Virus record (IMG/VR): IMGVR_UViG_3300047550_003313
Coordinates: 1-48,490 of that record
Length of the DNA stretch: 48,490 nucleotides
Reading direction: 5' to 3' (one strand)
Source: a virus
Shown: positions 443-40,383 of the stretch, one piece after another
Layout: every line of letters begins with the position of its first letter
How positions within the stretch are numbered: position 1 is the first letter of the stretch
The notes under the pieces: generated by a model
Databases searched by the model: none
Told to the model about the DNA's origin: nothing
What the model saw: the letters and a program-made list of their open reading frames with translations, nothing else
Position numbers and translations under genes: made by a program

Positions 443-2590
443 ATGTCTGTTAATTTTGAAATTAAAGGAATGCTTGCTCGTCTTCTTGCCACAGAAGATT
501 TGATTGTTGAGCATAAAAAAGTGGAGACTGCTTGTTTTAATGTTCATACACGAGTTCTTACTTTACCGATGTGGGAGCGTGCTTCTAATAATGTTTATGA
601 CCTTTTGCTAAGTCATGAGGCGGCCCACGCAATTTATACAGATAATATTGACTGGACAAAAGACTACAAGATTCCTCCGCAGTTTGTGAATGTGGTGGAG
701 GATGCTCGTATTGAGAAACTGATGAAGCGTCGTTATGCTGGTCTGGCAAAGACTTTCTTTAATGGATATAAAGAACTTGCCGATGAGGATTTCTTCCAAA
801 TTAAAGATGACAATCTGGAAACTTATAACCTTGCTGACCGTGCAAATCTGTGGTTCAAGGTCGGTAACTATGTGAATGTGCCGATTGAAAGTGGTGAAGA
901 GTCTGAAATTATCGGTATGATTGCCGATACTGAGACCTTTGCTGATGTGCTTGTGGCAGCAGAGGCACTCTATAAGTATTGCAAACACAAGCAACAGGAA
1001 GAAACTAAGACTCAGATTGACAATCTGGAGTCTCAGGATTCTGGTGCGAGTCAACAACCTGCTTCTGATTTTTCCGATCAGCAGGAAGGTGAGAATGACA
1101 AACCTGAATCTGGTGGTGAATCACAACTTCCCTCAACCAGTGAAACAGAGCAGGAAAAGAAACCTACTTCTCAGGGTGGTGAAACTAATGAGGATCCAGA
1201 AGTCAAGACGATGGAATCTCTGGAAGAGGCACTGAAAGACCTCATCAACAACGATGGGTATGAGAATGTCTATCTGGAGTTGCCTAAACTTGACCTGGAT
1301 AAAGTGATTGTGCCTAACTCTGAAATTCACGATAGGTGTAAAGAATCTTGGGATAGTTTTATTCAAGATCGTGATTGGAAGTATGAGGATGTGTTTGGTG
1401 GAGTTGATAGTGACTATGTTGCTTTCAAAAGGTCGGCACAGAAAGAAGTCAACTATCTGGTGAAAGAGTTTGAGTGTCGCAAGGCAGCAGATTCCTATGC
1501 CCGTGCCACTACTGCTCGCACTGGTGTATTGGATTGTGCTAAACTTCATACCTACAAATACAACGAAGACCTCTTCAAGAAAGTCACCACTCTTGTCGAT
1601 GGTAAGAATCACGGACTCGTTTTTGTGCTGGATTGGTCTGGATCAATGTCTAATGTGATGCTGGATACTATCAAACAACTCTTCAATCTGGTTTGGTTTT
1701 GTAAGAAAGTTGCGATTCCATTTGAGGTTTATGCCTTCACCACTGATTATCCTCTTGTCAAGTATGATGAGAATGGTAAGGCAGATTTGCGTCAACTTTC
1801 CTATCAGAAAAAGGATGGACTCGTCCAAGTTGGTGAATGGTTTTCAATGATGAATCTTCTTACCAGTAAAGTGAATGGTAAGACTCTGGATGAGCAGATG
1901 AAGAATATCTATCGTCTTGCTGCTTCTTTCCGTTACTATTCGCACGTTTGCTATTCATATCCTGTGGGTATGAGTCTCTCTGGCACTCCCCTGAATGAGG
2001 CACTGATTTCTCTTCATCAGATTCTTCCTAAGTTTCAGAAGGAAAACAAACTTCAGAAAGTCCAGTGTGTGATTCTAACTGATGGTGAAGGTGCTCTTCT
2101 TAAGTATCATCGTGAAGTCCATCGTCGGTGGGAAGAAGATCCTTATATGGGCACATCACACATTGGTCCTAATGCTTTCCTTCGTGATCGTAAGACTGGA
2201 ATGACCTATTCTTGTGATTGTGAGTATCACGAATTCACCGATGTGCTTCTCCGCAATCTCCGTGACAGGTTTACTGATATTAACTTTATTGGTATTCGTG
2301 TGCTTGAATCTCGTGATGCTGGGCACTTTATTCGTCGGTATTGTGGGTATTATGGAGACACCTATGAAAAGACAATGAATGCCTGGAAAAAAGAAAAGGC
2401 ATTCACTATCAAGTCTTCTGGTTATCATTCTTACTTTGGTCTTTCTGCCGCAACTCTTGCTCAGGAATCTGAATTTGAGGTTGCCGAAGATGCTACCAAG
2501 TCTCAAATCAAATCTGCTTTTGTGAAGAGTTTGAAGTCTAAGAAGATGAATAAGAAGATTCTTGGAGATTTTATTTCGTTAGTGGCATAA
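443..2590 (+). CDS. Zincin-like / VWA-domain protein (CobT-like)
   Basis: 715 aa. An HEAAH motif (H58-H62) followed by VEDARIE near residue 86 looks like a metallopeptidase-type zinc site. Residues about 190-260 are an acidic, low-complexity linker rich in E, Q and S. A von Willebrand A domain begins near residue 390 with the MIDAS motif DWSGS (397-401). VWA proteins paired with MoxR/CobS-type AAA ATPases act as chaperone or chelatase partners, and such an ATPase is encoded at 5075. Cyanophage relatives are usually called peptidase or CobT-like; neither protease nor cobalt-chelatase activity is shown by sequence alone. A remodelling role with the ATPase is inference. Confidence 0.75.
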   Translation: MSVNFEIKGMLARLLATEDLIVEHKKVETACFNVHTRVLTLPMWERASNNVYDLLLSHEAAHAIYTDNIDWTKDYKIPPQFVNVVEDARIEKLMKRRYAGLAKTFFNGYKELADEDFFQIKDDNLETYNLADRANLWFKVGNYVNVPIESGEESEIIGMIADTETFADVLVAAEALYKYCKHKQQEETKTQIDNLESQDSGASQQPASDFSDQQEGENDKPESGGESQLPSTSETEQEKKPTSQGGETNEDPEVKTMESLEEALKDLINNDGYENVYLELPKLDLDKVIVPNSEIHDRCKESWDSFIQDRDWKYEDVFGGVDSDYVAFKRSAQKEVNYLVKEFECRKAADSYARATTARTGVLDCAKLHTYKYNEDLFKKVTTLVDGKNHGLVFVLDWSGSMSNVMLDTIKQLFNLVWFCKKVAIPFEVYAFTTDYPLVKYDENGKADLRQLSYQKKDGLVQVGEWFSMMNLLTSKVNGKTLDEQMKNIYRLAASFRYYSHVCYSYPVGMSLSGTPLNEALISLHQILPKFQKENKLQKVQCVILTDGEGALLKYHREVHRRWEEDPYMGTSHIGPNAFLRDRKTGMTYSCDCEYHEFTDVLLRNLRDRFTDINFIGIRVLESRDAGHFIRRYCGYYGDTYEKTMNAWKKEKAFTIKSSGYHSYFGLSAATLAQESEFEVAEDATKSQIKSAFVKSLKSKKMNKKILGDFISLVA

Positions 2591-2626
2591 ATAAAAATAC
2601 CTAATTTGGTGGTTCTTTTTAGGTTG

Positions 2627-2652
2627 GGAAAAGTACCTTCGGGTGCTTTTCC
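2627..2652 (+). terminator. UUCG-capped hairpin
   Basis: GGAAAAGTACC (2627-2637), loop TTCG, GGTGCTTTTCC (2642-2652): 11 pairs with one G-U. There is no strong T-run after it, so it may be a processing or weak termination signal after the VWA gene rather than a full terminator. Confidence 0.55.
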
Positions 2653-2654
2653 TG

Positions 2655-2662
2655 TATAAATA
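2655..2662 (+). promoter_or_regulatory. T4-type late promoter
   Basis: Exact TATAAATA, the T4 late consensus, 27 bases before the HNH endonuclease start at 2689. It lies inside the 2601-2681 inverted repeat. Confidence 0.7.
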
Positions 2663-2688
2663 CTAATAACCACCAAATTAGAATAGAA

Positions 2689-3489
2689 ATGAATTATCTA
2701 AAACATTATTGTAATCTCATCAGGAAAGCAGAGAAGAGAACTCCTCCTGAAGGTTATATAGAAAAACATCATACATTTCCAAAAAGTATCTTTGGAAAAA
2801 ATAATAGAGTTGTTGTGCTTACAGCAAGAGAGCATTATATTGCTCACTTATTGTTAGTAAAAATTTATATAAAAAGATATGGATTGAAAGATAATCGAAC
2901 TATTGGAATGATGTATGCTTATAATATGATGTCTAATAGGGGAGTTTATAATCATAGTATTTTATATGAAACTTTTAGAAAAAAATTTGTAAAAAGTATT
3001 AGGGGTGAAAGTCATCCTATGTATGGAAGAAATCATACTGAAGATACTAAAATAAAAATGCGTAAATCCAAAAATATGCCTCCTAGGACTAAAGAGCATA
3101 ATGAAAAATTGAGACGAGCAAATATTGGAAAAATTATATCTAATGAAACTAGAGAAAAATTGAGAAAATCACTTTTAGGAAAAAATACTGGACCCAAAAG
3201 TCAAGAAACTAAAAATAAAATAAGTCAATCTAAAATTGGTTCTATCCCTCCAAATAAAGGAAAACCGCATAGTGAAGAAACAAAAATAAAAATAAGAGAT
3301 AAAAAATGTAAGTATGAATATATTATTATCTCTCCATGTGGTATAGAATATAAAACAAATAATCTAAAAATGTTTTGTAGAGAATATACTAAAGAATATT
3401 TGTCTTATCCAAATATGTGTAAATTATCTAATGATAATTTTTATAATTACAAGATGTGGAAAGTAAACAGAGTGGAGCTGGTTGCCTGA
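2689..3489 (+). CDS. HNH homing endonuclease with NUMOD3 repeats
   Basis: 266 aa. The N-terminal nuclease domain carries EKHHTFPKS..NN-VVLTAREHYIAHLLL (residues about 25-60), the pattern of T4-like free-standing HNH endonucleases. Several NUMOD3-type DNA-binding motifs follow (SEETK-KI, SNETREKLRKS and similar) between about 105 and 205. The C-terminal 55 residues (I-SP-GIEY...NLK-FCREY) match a module seen in the endonucleases at 17814 and 34234. Base composition is clearly more AT-rich than the flanking genes, as expected for a mobile element. Expression is probably late and hairpin-controlled. Confidence 0.85.
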   Translation: MNYLKHYCNLIRKAEKRTPPEGYIEKHHTFPKSIFGKNNRVVVLTAREHYIAHLLLVKIYIKRYGLKDNRTIGMMYAYNMMSNRGVYNHSILYETFRKKFVKSIRGESHPMYGRNHTEDTKIKMRKSKNMPPRTKEHNEKLRRANIGKIISNETREKLRKSLLGKNTGPKSQETKNKISQSKIGSIPPNKGKPHSEETKIKIRDKKCKYEYIIISPCGIEYKTNNLKMFCREYTKEYLSYPNMCKLSNDNFYNYKMWKVNRVELVA

Positions 3490-3495
3490 TAAATA
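3488..3495 (+). promoter_or_regulatory. Late promoter variant
   Basis: GATAAATA overlapping the stop codon of the HNH gene, 20 bases before the start at 3516. Confidence 0.6.
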
Positions 3496-3515
3496 CCTAA
3501 AAAGTAATTATACAG

Positions 3516-33409: not shown

Positions 33410-34120
33410 ATGCAAATCGATCTCCATAATTTTTTCAAATACTTTGACGAAAAAAATCCAAAGCACGTTGCTGCAGTAGAACAATTTGAAAAAGACCTTC
33501 TTGCAAAAGCAAATGATCTGATGCAAGATGAATCAAATTGGGTTAGGATTTTTAGAACAAAGGTAGAAGCACCAGAACCAAAAGGAATACTATTGGATGT
33601 TCGGTGGTTTCCACAAACTGATAACTACGCACTTCCAGACTCCACTTGCAACTCATCTGCTTGTGCAATGTTCCTTGAGTTTATGAAACCTGGATCTCTA
33701 TCATCAGGTGCAAAAGGTGATGATGCTTATTTGAGAAAGGTTCTGGCATTAGGAAAATCTACAGACCATTCGGTTCAAACAAGAGTATTGGAGTCTTATG
33801 GCGTCAAATCTACATTCAGGTATGACTTGGGTTTTGATGATTTGGACAGAGAACTTAAATCTGGACGCCCTGTGGTTATTGGTATTTTACATCGTGGTCC
33901 AGAATCTGCTCCTACTGGTTCAGGTCATATGATTTGCATAATCGGCAAAACTGAATCTGGTGATTATTATGCTCACGACCCTTATGGAAATCTTTATGAA
34001 AATTATGTAACTCCAGTAGAAAATGGAAGAAGAGTAGTCTATAGGAAGTCTACTCTAGAAAAACGTTGGACTATTAAACATCCTAAGGACGGTTGGGGTA
34101 GAATTTATTTGCATAAATAG
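33410..34120 (+). CDS. C39-like cysteine peptidase
   Basis: 236 aa. A catalytic-type Cys (C80, or less likely C85) lies in STCNSSACAMFLEFM; the His is in SGHMICIIGK and the Asp in YYAHDPYGN. This Cys-His-Asp order and the GRPVVIGILHRG strand fit the Peptidase C39-like (papain-type) family. Near two lytic enzymes it may cleave peptidoglycan cross-links or process a phage protein; the target is unknown. Confidence 0.7.
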   Translation: MQIDLHNFFKYFDEKNPKHVAAVEQFEKDLLAKANDLMQDESNWVRIFRTKVEAPEPKGILLDVRWFPQTDNYALPDSTCNSSACAMFLEFMKPGSLSSGAKGDDAYLRKVLALGKSTDHSVQTRVLESYGVKSTFRYDLGFDDLDRELKSGRPVVIGILHRGPESAPTGSGHMICIIGKTESGDYYAHDPYGNLYENYVTPVENGRRVVYRKSTLEKRWTIKHPKDGWGRIYLHK

Positions 34121-34158
34121 GAGTGTCTGTTGAACCCGCAATTTCTACAGATAAGATT

Positions 34159-34181
34159 AGGTGCTCTTTGGAGTACCTTTT
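34159..34181 (+). terminator. Terminator-like hairpin
   Basis: AGGTGCTC, loop TTTG, GAGTACCT (34171-34178), then a short T-run. One G-U pair. Confidence 0.65.
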
Positions 34182-34195
34182 CTAATATAAACTCT

Positions 34196-34203
34196 TATAA
34201 ATA
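34196..34203 (+). promoter_or_regulatory. T4-type late promoter
   Basis: Exact TATAAATA, 31 bases before the endonuclease start at 34234. Confidence 0.75.
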
Positions 34204-34233
34204 GTAATGCGGGTTTAATAGAACGGAAAAAAA

Positions 34234-35016
34234 ATGGACCAAGATTCTTGGAATTCATATTTGTATCAGATTATTTTTGAAACTGGACATTGGTATGGTG
34301 GTGTCTCTACAAGAAAAGGTAATGATCCAGTCAATGATGGTTATTTTGGATCACCTATAACGCATAAAAATTATTGGAAAACTATTTCATATAGAAAGCA
34401 AGTCGTTGCATTATTGTTTTTAGATAACCCAACTTTAGAAATGTATGAATATGAAAAAAACTATTTGGAGAATAGAAATTGGAAAAATGATGCATTATGT
34501 TTAAATGAACATTGTGGTGGAGGATTTGGAAACGTTGCTTGTTCCAATGGTGGTAAGATTGGGGGAAAAATTCAAGTTAAATTAAAACTGGGAATACATA
34601 AATTTTCTAATGCTGAAAGATCTGAGATTGCTAAAAATAACTGGAAAAACAAAAGTTTAAATGATAAAATAGTACAAATAGATAGACTTAGAAATTCATA
34701 TGAAATTCTTACTGATGAGCAAAAAAATAAAATAAAAAATAATGCGAGGATAAGAGGAAAACAAAAATGGAATTTATTATCAGAGACTGAAAAAAAAATT
34801 AAAGTAGAATTGTTGAGACAATCATTTGAAAATAATAGACCTGAATTGTGGGAAGTAATCTCTCCAGATTCTGTTTGTTATATTGTTAAAAATCTTTCGA
34901 AATTTTGTAAAGAAAATGATTTACTTGTACCTTTAATGAATAAGGTATCAAAGGGGTTGCGAAAATCTCATAAAGGTTGGAAATGTCGTAAATTAACTAA
35001 ATATGAGTATGCATAA
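34234..35016 (+). CDS. GIY-YIG-type homing endonuclease
   Basis: 260 aa. The N-terminus has a variant GIY-YIG core (YLYQIIFETGHWYGGVSTRKG, then YFGSPITHKNYW) and EYEKNYLE as metal-binding segment. The middle is basic and repetitive. The C-terminus (WEVISPDSVCYIVKNLSKFCKENDL...KGLRKSHKGWKCRKL) is the same DNA-binding module as in the genes at 2689 and 17814. Strongly AT-rich. It sits between the C39-like peptidase and the lysozyme, with hairpin-controlled late expression likely. Confidence 0.8.
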   Translation: MDQDSWNSYLYQIIFETGHWYGGVSTRKGNDPVNDGYFGSPITHKNYWKTISYRKQVVALLFLDNPTLEMYEYEKNYLENRNWKNDALCLNEHCGGGFGNVACSNGGKIGGKIQVKLKLGIHKFSNAERSEIAKNNWKNKSLNDKIVQIDRLRNSYEILTDEQKNKIKNNARIRGKQKWNLLSETEKKIKVELLRQSFENNRPELWEVISPDSVCYIVKNLSKFCKENDLLVPLMNKVSKGLRKSHKGWKCRKLTKYEYA

Positions 35017-35027
35017 GAGGTTATAAT

Positions 35028-35663
35028 ATGAGCATTAAATTCTTAGATGCTGTAAAGTATCATCAAGATCTTCAGCACCAGATTGATGCCTGGCAATTTC
35101 TTCAGGCATCAGTTCATAAAGAAATTCTTGATGAGTTTGCGAGAAGGTATCGTAATGAAAAAGTAGAACCAACTCTAGAGGGACTTCCAATTCCTGGGGT
35201 AGAGTTAATTAAAGAGTTTGAAGGTTGCCATCTAAAAGCATATTATGATCCTTTGACTGGTGGACTTCCCATTACGATTGGTTGGGGTAGCACTCGCAGG
35301 AAAGATGGCACTCGTTTTATGATTGGAAATAAAATCACACAAGACGAAGCAGATGACCTTCTTTATTATCAACTGAGAAAAGAGTTTCTCCCACCACTTC
35401 AAAACATTCCTTATTGGAATGAGATGAATGAAAACCAGCAAGGTGCTCTCCTATCTTTTGCTTATAATCTTGGAGCACGATTTTATGGGTCTGATGGTTT
35501 CAATACCATAACTAGAGTATTGAAAAATAAAGAATGGGACAAAGTTCCTGATGCTCTTTATCTCTATCATAATCCAGGCACATCAGTAGCAGCAGGATTG
35601 CAGAGAAGAAGAATTGCTGAAGGTAAACTCTGGATGGAAGGACTTAAAAAACTGAATAAATAA
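35028..35663 (+). CDS. Endolysin, GH24 lysozyme
   Basis: 211 aa. An N-terminal extension of about 55 residues precedes the T4-type lysozyme fold: GVELIKEFEGCHLKAYYDP (catalytic Glu in EFEG), ITIGWGST (Asp/Thr region) and NENQQGALLSFAYNLG. It cuts the glycan strand of peptidoglycan for lysis. No signal peptide is visible, so it needs a holin to reach the wall. A purine-rich ribosome site (AAGAGG) precedes the start. Confidence 0.9.
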   Translation: MSIKFLDAVKYHQDLQHQIDAWQFLQASVHKEILDEFARRYRNEKVEPTLEGLPIPGVELIKEFEGCHLKAYYDPLTGGLPITIGWGSTRRKDGTRFMIGNKITQDEADDLLYYQLRKEFLPPLQNIPYWNEMNENQQGALLSFAYNLGARFYGSDGFNTITRVLKNKEWDKVPDALYLYHNPGTSVAAGLQRRRIAEGKLWMEGLKKLNK

Positions 35664-38125: not shown

Positions 38126-38161
38126 CCTCCCATGCCTCTCATAGAAGCACAAACAGGGAGG
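38126..38161 (+). other. Leader hairpin before tRNA-Arg
   Basis: CCTCCC (38126-38131) pairs with GGGAGG (38156-38161) in the 80-nt leader; a further G-run/C-run pair lies upstream. Probably a processing structure. Confidence 0.4.
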
Positions 38162-38168
38162 TCTCTTG

Positions 38169-38238
38169 GGCTCATAGTTAAATGGATATAACCATTGCCT
38201 TCTAAGCAATTGTTCTAGGTTCGATTCCTAGTGAGCCT
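38169..38238 (+). tRNA. tRNA-Arg (TCT)
   Basis: Acceptor GGCTCAT/GTGAGCC, anticodon loop CTTCTAA, T-loop TTCGATT, T in the discriminator position. Slightly short at 70 nt. Confidence 0.88.
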
Positions 38239-38262
38239 GTTGACTTTTTAACAAAAAAGTCT

Positions 38263-38270
38263 TATAAATA
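38263..38270 (+). promoter_or_regulatory. T4-type late promoter inside the tRNA region
   Basis: Exact TATAAATA, 22 bases before the 33-aa frame at 38292. Confidence 0.65.
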
Positions 38271-38291
38271 AAAACACTTAGGTCGAAAACA

Positions 38292-38393
38292 ATGTCTTTC
38301 CAAATGTCCACCAAGCAGATTAGTAATCTCGATTGCCGCTATTGGCATATTGAGGGTACTCCCCTGTTTGTGGATATGGAAAGACATATGTAA
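38292..38393 (+). CDS. Putative 33-aa peptide
   Basis: Begins MSFQMSTKQISNLDCRYWHI and ends FVDMERHM. Polar, with aromatic residues; no domain and no clear ribosome site. Support comes from the late promoter just upstream and the terminator at 38422 just downstream, which make a self-contained late unit within the tRNA cluster. Confidence 0.4.
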   Translation: MSFQMSTKQISNLDCRYWHIEGTPLFVDMERHM

Positions 38394-38421
38394 GATGTAA
38401 TCCATAAAAGCAAATAAGAAG

Positions 38422-38454
38422 GGGAGGGAAACAAAAAGTTTCTCTCCCTTTTTT
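38422..38454 (+). terminator. Intrinsic terminator
   Basis: GGGAGGGAAA (38422-38431), loop CAAAAAG, TTTCTCTCCC (38439-38448), six T; ten pairs with one G-U. Confidence 0.9.
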
Positions 38455-38463
38455 GTTGCTTGT

Positions 38464-38637
38464 GACACTTCCTCAAGTGTCCACCCACTACCACCCAGAG
38501 ATTGAAGCGGTGGTATATTACATAAGTCGGTGGGGGAACGAGACCCCAAACTGCCAAGACCACTTTCGGAACTGGCACAAACCACTTTCCCCTCACTGGG
38601 TTCTGTGGTATTCTTAAAGGGTGGTTGAGAGACCACC
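38464..38637 (+). ncRNA. Hairpin-rich region, candidate structured RNA
   Basis: No gene. Consecutive hairpins: GACACTT/AAGTGTC (38464/38475), TACCACC/GGTGGTA (38489/38509), TGGGG/CCCCA (38531/38544), TGCCA/TGGCA (38552/38573), ACCAC/GTGGT (38581/38605) and GGTGGT/ACCACC (38620/38632). CCACC at 38481 could alternatively pair with GGTGG at 38529. The density of perfect stems is much higher than in other spacers. Class unknown. Confidence 0.55.
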
Positions 38638-38672
38638 AGCACCTTGACAACTGAATAATTACCACATTATAT

Positions 38673-38746
38673 GGGTCACTAACTCAATTGGTTAGAGTAG
38701 CACGCTTTTAACGTGAAAGTTCTGAGTTCGAGTCTCAGGTGACCCA
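38673..38746 (+). tRNA. tRNA-Lys (TTT)
   Basis: Acceptor GGGTCAC/GTGACCC, anticodon loop CTTTTAA, T-loop TTCGAGT, discriminator A. Confidence 0.93.
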
Positions 38747-38788
38747 TTGCTACTTGCGCTGGAAAGATAAACCAGAATGCCGTAGCAA
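38747..38788 (+). other. Spacer hairpin A
   Basis: TTGCTAC (38747-38753) pairs with GTAGCAA (38782-38788); inner CTGG/CCAG (38759/38772). Starts exactly after tRNA-Lys and shares its closing helix with spacer B at 39003. Confidence 0.6.
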
Positions 38789-38792
38789 GACA

Positions 38793-38842
38793 GAGGCTAT
38801 GTCCCTGTTATATCCTTATGAGGTATATCACACATAGTCCAT
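38793..38842 (+). ncRNA. Covarying RNA element, copy 1
   Basis: 50 nt. Outer helix G95 G96 + CTATGT (to 38802) with ACATAG (38832-38837) + TCC; inner hairpin TATA, bulged T, CCT, loop TATG, AGG, TATA (38809-38827). It differs from copy 2 at four positions only, all in the outer helix and all compensatory. Lies directly before tRNA-Tyr. Confidence 0.72.
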
Positions 38843-38844
38843 AT

Positions 38845-38926
38845 GGGAGGATGTCCGAGTGGTTAATGGAAACGGTCTGTAAAACCGTCGGCTCTGCCTT
38901 CGCAGGTTCGAATCCTGCTCCTCCCA
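38845..38926 (+). tRNA. tRNA-Tyr (GTA)
   Basis: Acceptor GGGAGGA/TCCTCCC, anticodon loop CTGTAAA, long variable arm typical of bacterial Tyr, discriminator A. Confidence 0.93.
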
Positions 38927-38930
38927 CCTT

Positions 38931-39002
38931 GACTCTATAGTGAAGCGGTCATCACGCTACCCTGTCACGGTAGTATCACGGGTTCAAATCCCGTTAGAGT
39001 CG
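38931..39002 (+). tRNA. tRNA-Asp (GTC)
   Basis: Acceptor GACTCTA/TAGAGTC, anticodon loop CTGTCAC, T-loop TTCAAAT, discriminator G. Confidence 0.93.
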
Positions 39003-39046
39003 TTGCTACGCTGCCTGTGGAGTGCCCCTCCTTGGCGGTTGTAGCA
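39003..39046 (+). other. Spacer hairpin B
   Basis: TGCTAC (39004-39009) pairs with GTAGCA (39041-39046), continued by GCTGCC/GGCGGT and a GGAG/CTCC tip. Begins exactly after tRNA-Asp. Confidence 0.6.
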
Positions 39047-39050
39047 TCAA

Positions 39051-39122
39051 GTTCCTATCGACTAGCGGTTAGGTCACCACCCTTTCAAGGTGGCAGCACG
39101 GGTTCGAATCCCGTTAGGAATA
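39051..39122 (+). tRNA. tRNA-Glu (TTC)
   Basis: Acceptor GTTCCTA/TAGGAAT, anticodon loop CTTTCAA, T-loop TTCGAAT, discriminator A. Confidence 0.92.
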
Positions 39123-39126
39123 CCAA

Positions 39127-39199
39127 CGGGGAGTAGCTCAGATGGTAGAGCACGGGATTGAAGATCCTGGTGTCGGTGGTTCAATTCCACCCTCTTCGA
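39127..39199 (+). tRNA. tRNA-Phe (GAA)
   Basis: Acceptor CGGGGAG/CTCTTCG with two G-U pairs, anticodon loop TTGAAGA, T-loop TTCAATT, discriminator A. Confidence 0.9.
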
Positions 39200-39203
39200 C
39201 TTT

Positions 39204-39276
39204 GGAAACATAGCTTAGTTGGTAAAGCATTCGACTGATAATCGAAAGACCACTGGTTCGAGTCCAGTTGTTTCCA
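39204..39276 (+). tRNA. tRNA-Ile (GAT)
   Basis: Acceptor GGAAACA/TGTTTCC, anticodon loop CTGATAA, T-loop TTCGAGT, discriminator A. Confidence 0.93.
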
Positions 39277-39278
39277 TT

Positions 39279-39368
39279 GGAAGTGTGGCAGAGAGGTCTA
39301 ATGCAGTGGATTGCTAATCCGCCGATGTTCTTTAAGGGCATCCGTTGGTTCGAATCCAACCACTTCCG
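39279..39368 (+). tRNA. tRNA-Ser (GCT)
   Basis: Acceptor GGAAGTG/CACTTCC, anticodon loop TTGCTAA, long variable arm as expected for Ser, discriminator G. Confidence 0.92.
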
Positions 39369-39370
39369 TT

Positions 39371-39444
39371 GGCAGTATAGCTCAGTCTGGCAGAGCACGG
39401 GTCTCATATGCCTATGGTCGATAGTTCAAATCTATCTACTGCCT
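39371..39444 (+). tRNA. tRNA-Met (CAT)
   Basis: Acceptor GGCAGTA/TACTGCC, anticodon loop CTCATAT, weak anticodon stem with a C-A mismatch, T in the discriminator position. Elongator Met is most likely; a lysidine-type Ile (CAT) cannot be excluded. Confidence 0.85.
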
Positions 39445-39445
39445 T

Positions 39446-39516
39446 GTGTCGTTAGCCTAGTGGTAAGGCATCGGTTTGTGGAACCGACTAGATGGGTTCA
39501 ATTCCCATACGACACC
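39446..39516 (+). tRNA. tRNA-His (GTG)
   Basis: Acceptor GTGTCGT/ACGACAC, anticodon loop TTGTGGA, discriminator C as in other His tRNAs. Confidence 0.92.
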
Positions 39517-39518
39517 CC

Positions 39519-39590
39519 GCCCTTATAGCTCAGTGGTAGAGCAACTCACTAGTAATGAGTAGGTCGTTGGTTCAAATCCAATTGAGGGCT
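39519..39590 (+). tRNA. tRNA-Thr (AGT), A at position 34
   Basis: Acceptor GCCCTTA/TGAGGGC, anticodon stem ACTCA/TGAGT, loop CTAGTAA. The anticodon AGT is rare in bacteria, where only Arg (ACG) normally has A34. Directly abuts tRNA-Gln. Confidence 0.85.
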
Positions 39591-39662
39591 TCTGAGGTCG
39601 CCAAGTGGTAAGGCAGCGGGTTTTGGTCCCGCCATTCGTAGGTTCGAATCCTACCCTCAGAA
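39591..39662 (+). tRNA. tRNA-Gln (TTG)
   Basis: Acceptor TCTGAGG/CCTCAGA, anticodon loop TTTTGGT, T-loop TTCGAAT, discriminator A. Confidence 0.92.
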
Positions 39663-39664
39663 CC

Positions 39665-39739
39665 TATCCGTGTAGCCCAATGGAAGAGGCAATAGACTAA
39701 GGATCTATTTGTTGGAGGTTCGATTCCTCTCACGGATAC
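39665..39739 (+). tRNA. tRNA with anticodon AAG (Leu by code, short variable loop)
   Basis: Acceptor TATCCGT/ACGGATA, anticodon stem ATAGA/TCTAT, loop CTAAGGA, T-loop TTCGATT. AAG reads Leu CUU, but the variable loop is short whereas bacterial tRNA-Leu has a long arm; the isotype is therefore uncertain. Confidence 0.8.
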
Positions 39740-39742
39740 CAA

Positions 39743-39817
39743 GTTGGGTTGGTGCAATTGGTAGCATCTTGGTCTCCAAAACCAAAGATTAGAGTTCAAG
39801 TCTCTAACCCTTCGCCA
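39743..39817 (+). tRNA. tRNA-Trp (CCA) with mismatched acceptor
   Basis: Anticodon loop CTCCAAA, T-loop TTCAAGT, discriminator G and an apparently encoded CCA. Acceptor GTTGGGT/ACCCTTC has two adjacent T-T mismatches, so functionality is uncertain. Confidence 0.8.
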
Positions 39818-39818
39818 A

Positions 39819-39892
39819 GTCCTTTTAGCTCAGTGGAACAGAGCAGTAGGCTACGAACCTATGTGTCGGGAGTTCGAATCTCTCAAAGGACG
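39819..39892 (+). tRNA. tRNA-Arg (ACG)
   Basis: Acceptor GTCCTTT/AAAGGAC, anticodon loop CTACGAA, T-loop TTCGAAT, discriminator G. Confidence 0.93.
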
Positions 39893-39934
39893 CTTGACAG
39901 ATTCTTATGAGTCTGTTACTATATAAAAGTGATA

Positions 39935-39984
39935 GAGGGTAAGTCCCTGTTATATCCTTATGAGGTATATCACACTTACTCCAT
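39935..39984 (+). ncRNA. Covarying RNA element, copy 2
   Basis: 50 nt, 46 identical to copy 1. The outer helix is GTAAGT (39939-39944) with ACTTAC (39974-39979), plus G-C and G-U below. The inner hairpin and internal loops are identical to copy 1. Lies after the main block of tRNAs. Confidence 0.72.
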
Positions 39985-40088
39985 CAAATAAGTAGGAAGT
40001 GCAAACCCTCTCGCTAGTCCTAGTATTCTGTGGCTGGATGAAGGTAAAGGTGATTCTGTCCGCACATAGAGATCCCTCCTACCATCAT
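39985..40088 (+). other. Spacer without a gene, possible long-range helix
   Basis: GTAGGA (39992-39997) can pair with TCCTAC (40077-40082) around an 80-nt interior. No tRNA features, no reading frame of note. Confidence 0.3.
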
Positions 40089-40160
40089 TCCAAGTAGCCC
40101 GCAAGGTGCGGGAGCAAACTGTTAATTTGTTATAGGTCAGTTCGATTCTGACACTTGGAG
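40089..40160 (+). tRNA. tRNA-Asn (GTT)
   Basis: Acceptor TCCAAGT/ACTTGGA, GC-rich D-stem CCCG/CGGG, anticodon loop CTGTTAA, T-loop TTCGATT, discriminator G. Confidence 0.92.
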
Positions 40161-40162
40161 CC

Positions 40163-40236
40163 GCCCCCATAGTTTTAGCAGTTAAAATAATCGCCTTGTA
40201 CGCGATAGTCGCGGGTGCAAATCCTCGCTGGGGGCT
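40163..40236 (+). tRNA. tRNA-Thr (TGT), unusual D and T loops
   Basis: Acceptor GCCCCCA/TGGGGGC, anticodon stem ATCGC/GCGAT, loop CTTGTAC. D-loop lacks the GG pair and the T-loop reads TGCAAAT. Confidence 0.85.
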
Positions 40237-40264
40237 TGACAAATCATAATATTTGTCTTATACT
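40236..40264 (+). promoter_or_regulatory. Sigma-70 promoter before tRNA-Gly
   Basis: TTGACA (40236-40241), 17 bp, TATACT (40259-40264); the first T is the last base of tRNA-Thr. Confidence 0.75.
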
Positions 40265-40290
40265 TCTTTCGTCCGTGTGAAGGAATGTGC

Positions 40291-40308
40291 TGGGAGAGAA
40301 ATCTCCCA
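40291..40308 (+). other. GNRA-capped hairpin
   Basis: TGGGAGA, loop GAAA, TCTCCCA, in the leader of tRNA-Gly. Confidence 0.55.
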
Positions 40309-40312
40309 TTTT

Positions 40313-40383
40313 GCGGGTATGGCGTAACAGTAGCGTGAGACCCTTCCAAGGTCTAGGCAGGGGGGCAGCACCCCTTACCCGCT
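40313..40383 (+). tRNA. tRNA-Gly (TCC)-like, degenerate loops
   Basis: Acceptor GCGGGTA/TACCCGC and anticodon stem AGACC/GGTCT with loop CTTCCAA are clean, but the T-loop is GGCAGCA instead of TTCRANN and the D-arm is poor. May be a pseudo-tRNA. Its end overlaps the HNH gene on the other strand. Confidence 0.65.

Follow-up and report, generated by a model that had tools for sequence, protein, structure and literature searches.

The stretch of viral DNA analysed here (hereafter the window, 48,490 bases) carries, next to a VWA gene, a plus-strand open reading frame of 266 aa (2689-3489). Its product matched PF07460 (2e-19) and phrog_655 (4.7e-31) and was approximately 33% identical to proteins of the T4 mobE region; on these profile and protein comparisons, the gene is classed as a MobE-like HNH homing endonuclease gene (HEG) with NUMOD3 repeats. 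Ahead of it lie two perfectly complementary 14-bp arms, CTAATTTGGTGGTT (2601-2614) and AACCACCAAATTAG (2668-2681), which flank TATAAATA (2655-2662); 7 nt separate the right arm from the ATG at 2689. A sequence-only reading had pointed to this inverted repeat; its coordinates were confirmed, and it was the sole perfect inverted repeat in the whole window with arms of 14 nt or more and a gap of at most 80 nt, and 30 first-order resamples of the window contained none. The RNA from 2590 to 2720 folded at −37.8 kcal/mol (z = −5.6), and none of 200 shuffles was equally good. The plus-strand motif TATAAATA is a late promoter by motif and is kept in relatives (box B); T4-type spacing after it implies a transcription start (+1) at A2668, where the right arm begins, and the HEG mRNA is predicted to open with that arm. 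Neither the right arm nor the spacer AATAGAA of this copy contained a Shine-Dalgarno-like AGGAG.

Three further plus-strand elements complete the first cassette of the window (2588-2691). A late-promoter-like TAAATA (box A, 2588-2593, within ATAAATA at 2587-2593), recognised by reading and by its spacing in relatives, has a predicted +1 at A2599. From there begins a hairpin, P1 (2599-2624), identified by parsing and covariation, in which ACCTAA (2599-2604) pairs with TTAGGT (2619-2624) and the loop holds most of the left, antisense arm. A second hairpin, P2 (2627-2652; GGAAAAGTACC-TTCG-GGTGCTTTTCC), was found by folding; it is terminator-like, with CUUCGG and a U-rich stretch at 2647-2655. Box A, P1, the CUUCGG hairpin P2 and the second copy at 34114-34231 were all absent from the sequence-only reading. 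Searches of Rfam 15 at gathering and loose thresholds returned nothing relevant (the best match to 2400-2900 had an E of 0.04, far under threshold), and none of ten sources had an Rfam 15 match at the element. An HDV-like ribozyme, considered from the order of P1, arm and P2, was dropped, as no P3 or catalytic loop was seen by reading.

The second complete copy, also on the plus strand, has different arms and precedes another nuclease gene. It comprises box A (TAAATA, 34114-34119, predicted +1 G34125), P1 (34125-34152; GTCTGT at 34125-34130 with ACAGAT at 34147-34152) with the left arm at 34126-34140, P2 (34159-34178; AGGTGCTC-TTTG-GAGTACCT) followed by a U-rich stretch, box B (TATAAATA, 34196-34203, predicted +1 G34209) and the right arm TGCGGGTTTAATAGA (34208-34222). 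The 260-aa product of the gene that follows (34234-35016) is GIY-YIG-like at its N terminus by reading, and its C-terminal part matched the phrog_2081 HNH endonuclease (1.3e-8); Pfam gave no match. The next ORF (35028-35663) is lysozyme-like by reading.

Two further features lie near the VWA gene. The end of the HEG reading frame and the bases after it (GGTTGCCTGATAAATA, window 3470-3500) resemble the 3′ end of the VWA gene of S-SCSM2R and S-SKS1, a likeness that could be read as a duplication of the VWA end on either side of the insertion (2560-2600 and 3470-3500). Upstream of the VWA gene, positions 2-385 encode the 3′ part of a GIY-YIG-like NUMOD3 endonuclease that continues upstream in a longer contig (L275). 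Its leader there has TATAAATA and no model match, and is perhaps a decayed cassette. Elsewhere in the window, a dense tRNA cluster occupies 38126-40383, with an abiF RNA match at 38126-38162.

The leader is not confined to this site. DNA comparison found the same leader before an endonuclease at a different genomic place in the Synechococcus phage S-SRM01, whose VWA gene is without the insertion. In IMG/VR, protein-based scans yielded 63 different upstream sequences, approximately 58 of them with the same plan. A motif-first scan, for which the query was the P2-box B string only, returned 71 loci; almost all of them had complementary arms followed by a nuclease ORF, which usually started 25 nt after box B. 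The loci are mostly metagenomic fragments; among named carriers, six copies were counted in S-SRM01, three in B23 and one in S-N03. By consensus, the cassette runs from box A (TAAATA) through five bases, a purine, the 5′ strand of P1 (YYTR...), the left arm, a short spacer, the 3′ strand of P1, P2, box B (TATAAATA), 4-5 bases, the right arm and usually 6-7 bases to the ATG; in the majority of leaders, the end of the helix is 6-7 nt away from that codon. In a set of 82 leaders, TATAAATA was present in 79 and a purine stood at the predicted box B +1 in all 82; box B lay between the arms, and in almost every leader the predicted +1 fell on the opening bases of the right arm. The plan was absent from three leaders (L005, L020 and L026), one leader (L051) had an intact box B and P2 and arms that did not match, and another (L060) showed a variant arrangement, with complementary arms without the usual P1 layout. 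No significant model match was obtained in T4, Aeh1, S-PM2, syn9, P-SSM2, S-CRM01, S-SM2, Bellamy, S-SKS1, S-SCSM2R or AG-345-F15 (the best, in T4, had an E of 0.06). A limited literature search, with most subscription papers outside it, found no published description of this cassette.

The genes that follow the cassettes include MobE-like HNH, several GIY-YIG-like types, NUMOD4/HNH_3, endonuclease VII-like and TnpB genes. The TnpB/OrfB (IS605 type) genes follow the same leader in two phages (L250, G010:34454-34567, called via Pfam; L259, G018:15162-15267, called by reading only). At a further locus (L255, G016:58528-58635), a 190-aa ORF without a family match follows the cassette and is possibly an undescribed nuclease type. 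As judged from these comparisons, the cassette is a portable leader common to unrelated nucleases (HNH, GIY-YIG and TnpB) at many unrelated sites, and both occupied and empty alleles exist for related cassettes, which agrees with mobility of a putative homing nuclease. Several GIY-YIG-like endonucleases carry the label 'translation initiation factor 2' in public records (L225, 15516-16274; B23, 41548; Sf-CH5, 156271), which is probably a misannotation.

We asked whether box A belongs to the cassette or is a native late promoter of the insertion site. TAAATA stood exactly 6 nt before the YYTR motif of P1 in 80 of the 82 leaders, a set selected for a box A spacing of 5-7, and a purine, which was not selected for, occupied the predicted +1 in all 82. 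In a second set, box A was present in 64 of 64 parsed copies from 22 records; one extra arm match in that list, without box A and within a non-nuclease ORF, was a chance match. At five sets of sites the insertion started exactly at TAAATA and the empty allele was without it (L071 v L042/L138, L080 v L172, L031/L032 v L153, L033 v L108, and L027 v L049). In a 17.5-kb stretch of S-SRM01, eight of the 12 plus-strand TAAATA motifs belonged to four cassettes, as their box A or box B. A native origin was rejected on these two grounds for most of the sites compared, and box A is, by allele comparison, part of the insertion at several sites. TAAATA was already present in other empty alleles (L082/L089 v L119 and the window), so native boxes at the insertion site are used in some cases. 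At the VWA site of the window, relatives without the HEG have TAAATA at the VWA stop, and a native-promoter origin of box A is possible there. Box A was less consensus-like than box B (ATAAATA in 45 copies, CTAAATA in 19), the base at its predicted +1 was T in five of the 64 copies of the second set, and the copies examined in one phage record (G018) had CTAAATA boxes at both positions.

The sequence-only reading had called for compensatory changes in relatives, and these were found. Compensatory change in the arms was overwhelming: the 82 leaders held 53 distinct arm pairs, and the inner 11 arm positions were paired in 99.0% of cognate combinations v 60.6% of non-cognate ones. In a MAFFT alignment of 59 sequences, 97.7% of the cells of the arm helix were paired, falling to 36-46% when the pairing was slid, and two-sided changes occurred in eight of its ten pairs. 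The whole-structure score was 0.470 against 0.172 for shuffled alignments, and 0 of 500 shuffles reached it. Two-sided changes were also seen in five of six pairs of P1 and in five of six pairs of P2 in the same alignment. P1 varied independently of the arms, being CCTAT/ATAGG in one leader (L047) and CCTGT/ACAGG in another (L006) with the same arm core, and GCTTA/TAAGC in a third (L147). P1 (2599-2604/2619-2624 in the window) competes with the long helix for the left arm, and because the two share bases in part, they would be alternatives or a pseudoknot-like pair. The covariation shows that arm pairing matters, and it would be expected for action in cis and in trans alike.

Between the arms, P2 looks like an intrinsic terminator. 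A terminator-like hairpin with a U-rich stretch stood at the P2 position in 61 of 64 copies, compared with 24 of 640 shuffled leaders; a stricter terminator scan called the P2 of one relative (L100) and passed over that of the window, where the U-tract is modest. The predicted duplex of short RNA and mRNA averaged −22.8 kcal/mol for cognate pairs v −11.5 kcal/mol for non-cognate pairs, and the 5′ end of the late mRNA was predicted to be nearly unstructured.

Very probably, the cassette keeps its nuclease switched off through RNA complementary to the start of the message. The late-only switch put forward in the sequence-only reading stands in part: the arms covary, box B is always between them, the predicted HEG mRNA starts at the right arm, and I-TevI and the Aeh1 MobE gene provide a precedent (PMC2988022). 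The layout of the cassette argues against its premise that late RNA lacks the left arm. Late transcripts need not be without that arm, as the late-promoter-like box A lies upstream of it in 64 of 64 copies, and the RNA predicted from box A starts at P1 and includes it. A travelling upstream late promoter would yield late RNA with the left arm, of no use and indeed harmful to a simple switch unless this RNA is terminated and works on its own. The position of box A upstream of the left arm, the terminator-like P2 between the arms and the covariation of P1 on its own together suggest a separate short antisense RNA that would act alongside a simple read-through switch or in its place; P1 and P2 would suit a terminated, self-acting short RNA.

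We therefore propose, with somewhat better than even confidence, a mobile two-promoter antisense cassette, in which a short RNA from box A and arm pairing in cis both restrain the nuclease. Transcription from box A would produce a short RNA of approximately 58 nt, with its 5′ end at P1, the left arm exposed in the P1 loop and its 3′ end at P2. Box B would give rise to a nuclease mRNA that begins with the right arm. By predicted energies, pairing of the two RNAs would cover the mRNA from +1 to approximately 7 nt before the AUG, and such a helix at the mRNA 5′ end would, by precedent, block ribosome loading. Read-through RNA from upstream genes would contain both arms and be blocked in cis, the I-TevI-like part of the scheme. 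The expected effect is that nuclease output is kept low and falls as phage genome copies rise. The trans action of the box A RNA is inferred from these predicted features. It is an even question, in our judgement, whether this amounts to a phage antisense RNA family with one member per selfish nuclease: a late-promoter-driven, terminated hairpin RNA whose loop would bind the 5′ end of the mRNA that encodes its own nuclease, silencing that message in trans, with dozens of specificities and copy-number-dependent control of HNH, GIY-YIG and TnpB nucleases. Selection against cross-talk, or for orthogonal arms, within one genome was not significant (P about 0.25, within-genome arm-diversity test).

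The most serious alternative is a switch that works in cis only, in which the long helix of read-through RNA at the start codon blocks translation, RNA from box B, without the left arm, is translated, and box A, P1 and P2 are accessory (insulation, termination). A purely cis role is possible because full-length RNA prefers the long cis helix, which was the minimum-energy fold in 82 of 82 leaders; the covarying arms fit as well, and the same logic is established for I-TevI, I-TevII, I-TevIII, segB and Aeh1 mobE (PMC2988022) and for T4 e, soc and 49 (PMC3014915). It offers no explanation for the late promoter that travels ahead of the left arm with constant spacing, for the placing of that arm in a hairpin that covaries separately and competes with the long helix, or for the terminator-like hairpin between the arms. 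We regard a switch of this kind as a credible but rather unlikely account of the whole cassette.

It is highly improbable that the complementarity works as DNA, as a cruciform or as a replication or recombination signal for insertion, rather than as RNA. A mobile cassette with a sharp 5′ edge would suit such a role, but G-U pairs are tolerated in the arms in the RNA sense of the strand, the arms sit where the mRNA is predicted to start and, in the majority of leaders, 6-7 nt away from the ATG, their sequences vary widely among copies, and P1 and P2 need RNA-like folding. That P2 and the boxes form an ordinary terminator/promoter insulator of the kind typical of T4-like intergenic regions, with arm complementarity as a by-product, is barely conceivable: terminator-like hairpins do precede late promoters in T4-like phages, and leader BLAST weakly matches T4 terminator hairpins, but complementarity in 53 distinct arm pairs cannot have arisen incidentally, and T4, Aeh1 and the nine other phages tested gave no significant model match.

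The two-promoter antisense cassette would show unrelated selfish nucleases of cyanophages using one interchangeable, travelling RNA control module, more elaborate than the T4 hairpins. If the trans part is true, it would also provide a natural family of RNA pairs with many specificities that controls mobile nucleases. The cultured carriers S-SRM01, B23 and S-N03 are ready material for testing, and the cassette can serve as a marker for finding unannotated homing endonucleases.

Among known systems, T4-type HEGs whose leaders combine an internal late promoter with a hairpin that blocks the start (I-TevI, I-TevII, I-TevIII, segB and Aeh1 mobE; PMC2988022) share with the cassette a late promoter between the hairpin arms, read-through RNA that can sequester the start region and inner-promoter RNA without the left arm; the likeness to Aeh1 mobE extends to the MobE-like nuclease of the first window copy. 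Unlike those leaders, the cassette has an extra travelling upstream late-promoter box, a covarying P1 that encloses most of the left arm, a terminator-like P2 separating the two arms and a right arm without a Shine-Dalgarno sequence, and its one leader design is common to HNH, GIY-YIG and TnpB genes. The ribosome binding sites of the T4 late genes e, soc and 49 are sequestered in early RNA (PMC3014915); here too early RNA folds over the start region and the late promoter excludes the left arm, but these are resident phage genes rather than mobile ones, and the cited description is without a second upstream late promoter or a separate arm-bearing hairpin. According to the same review, no trans-acting small RNA from T4 has been functionally characterised (PMC3014915).

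In cyanophage S-PM2, the antisense RNA CfrI is linked to psbA and one endonuclease (PMC2984593, PMC12197685). It resembles the cassette in that an antisense RNA is associated with a cyanophage homing endonuclease, and differs in its length of about 225 nt and in its opposite-strand origin; S-PM2 had no significant model match (best E 0.26). The nearest working analogy is RNA-OUT of IS10/Tn10, a 69-nt RNA that pairs with the translation start region of RNA-IN, the mRNA of a mobile-element enzyme, with repression that rises with copy number (PMC5006887). Both systems would set a short RNA against the mRNA start of a mobile-element enzyme, in trans by inference for the cassette. RNA-OUT is transcribed from the opposite strand and overlaps its target, whereas both arms of the cassette are on the same strand and the predicted RNAs would pair via an inverted repeat. 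The cassette extends the known control of HEG leaders and possibly represents a new antisense RNA family.
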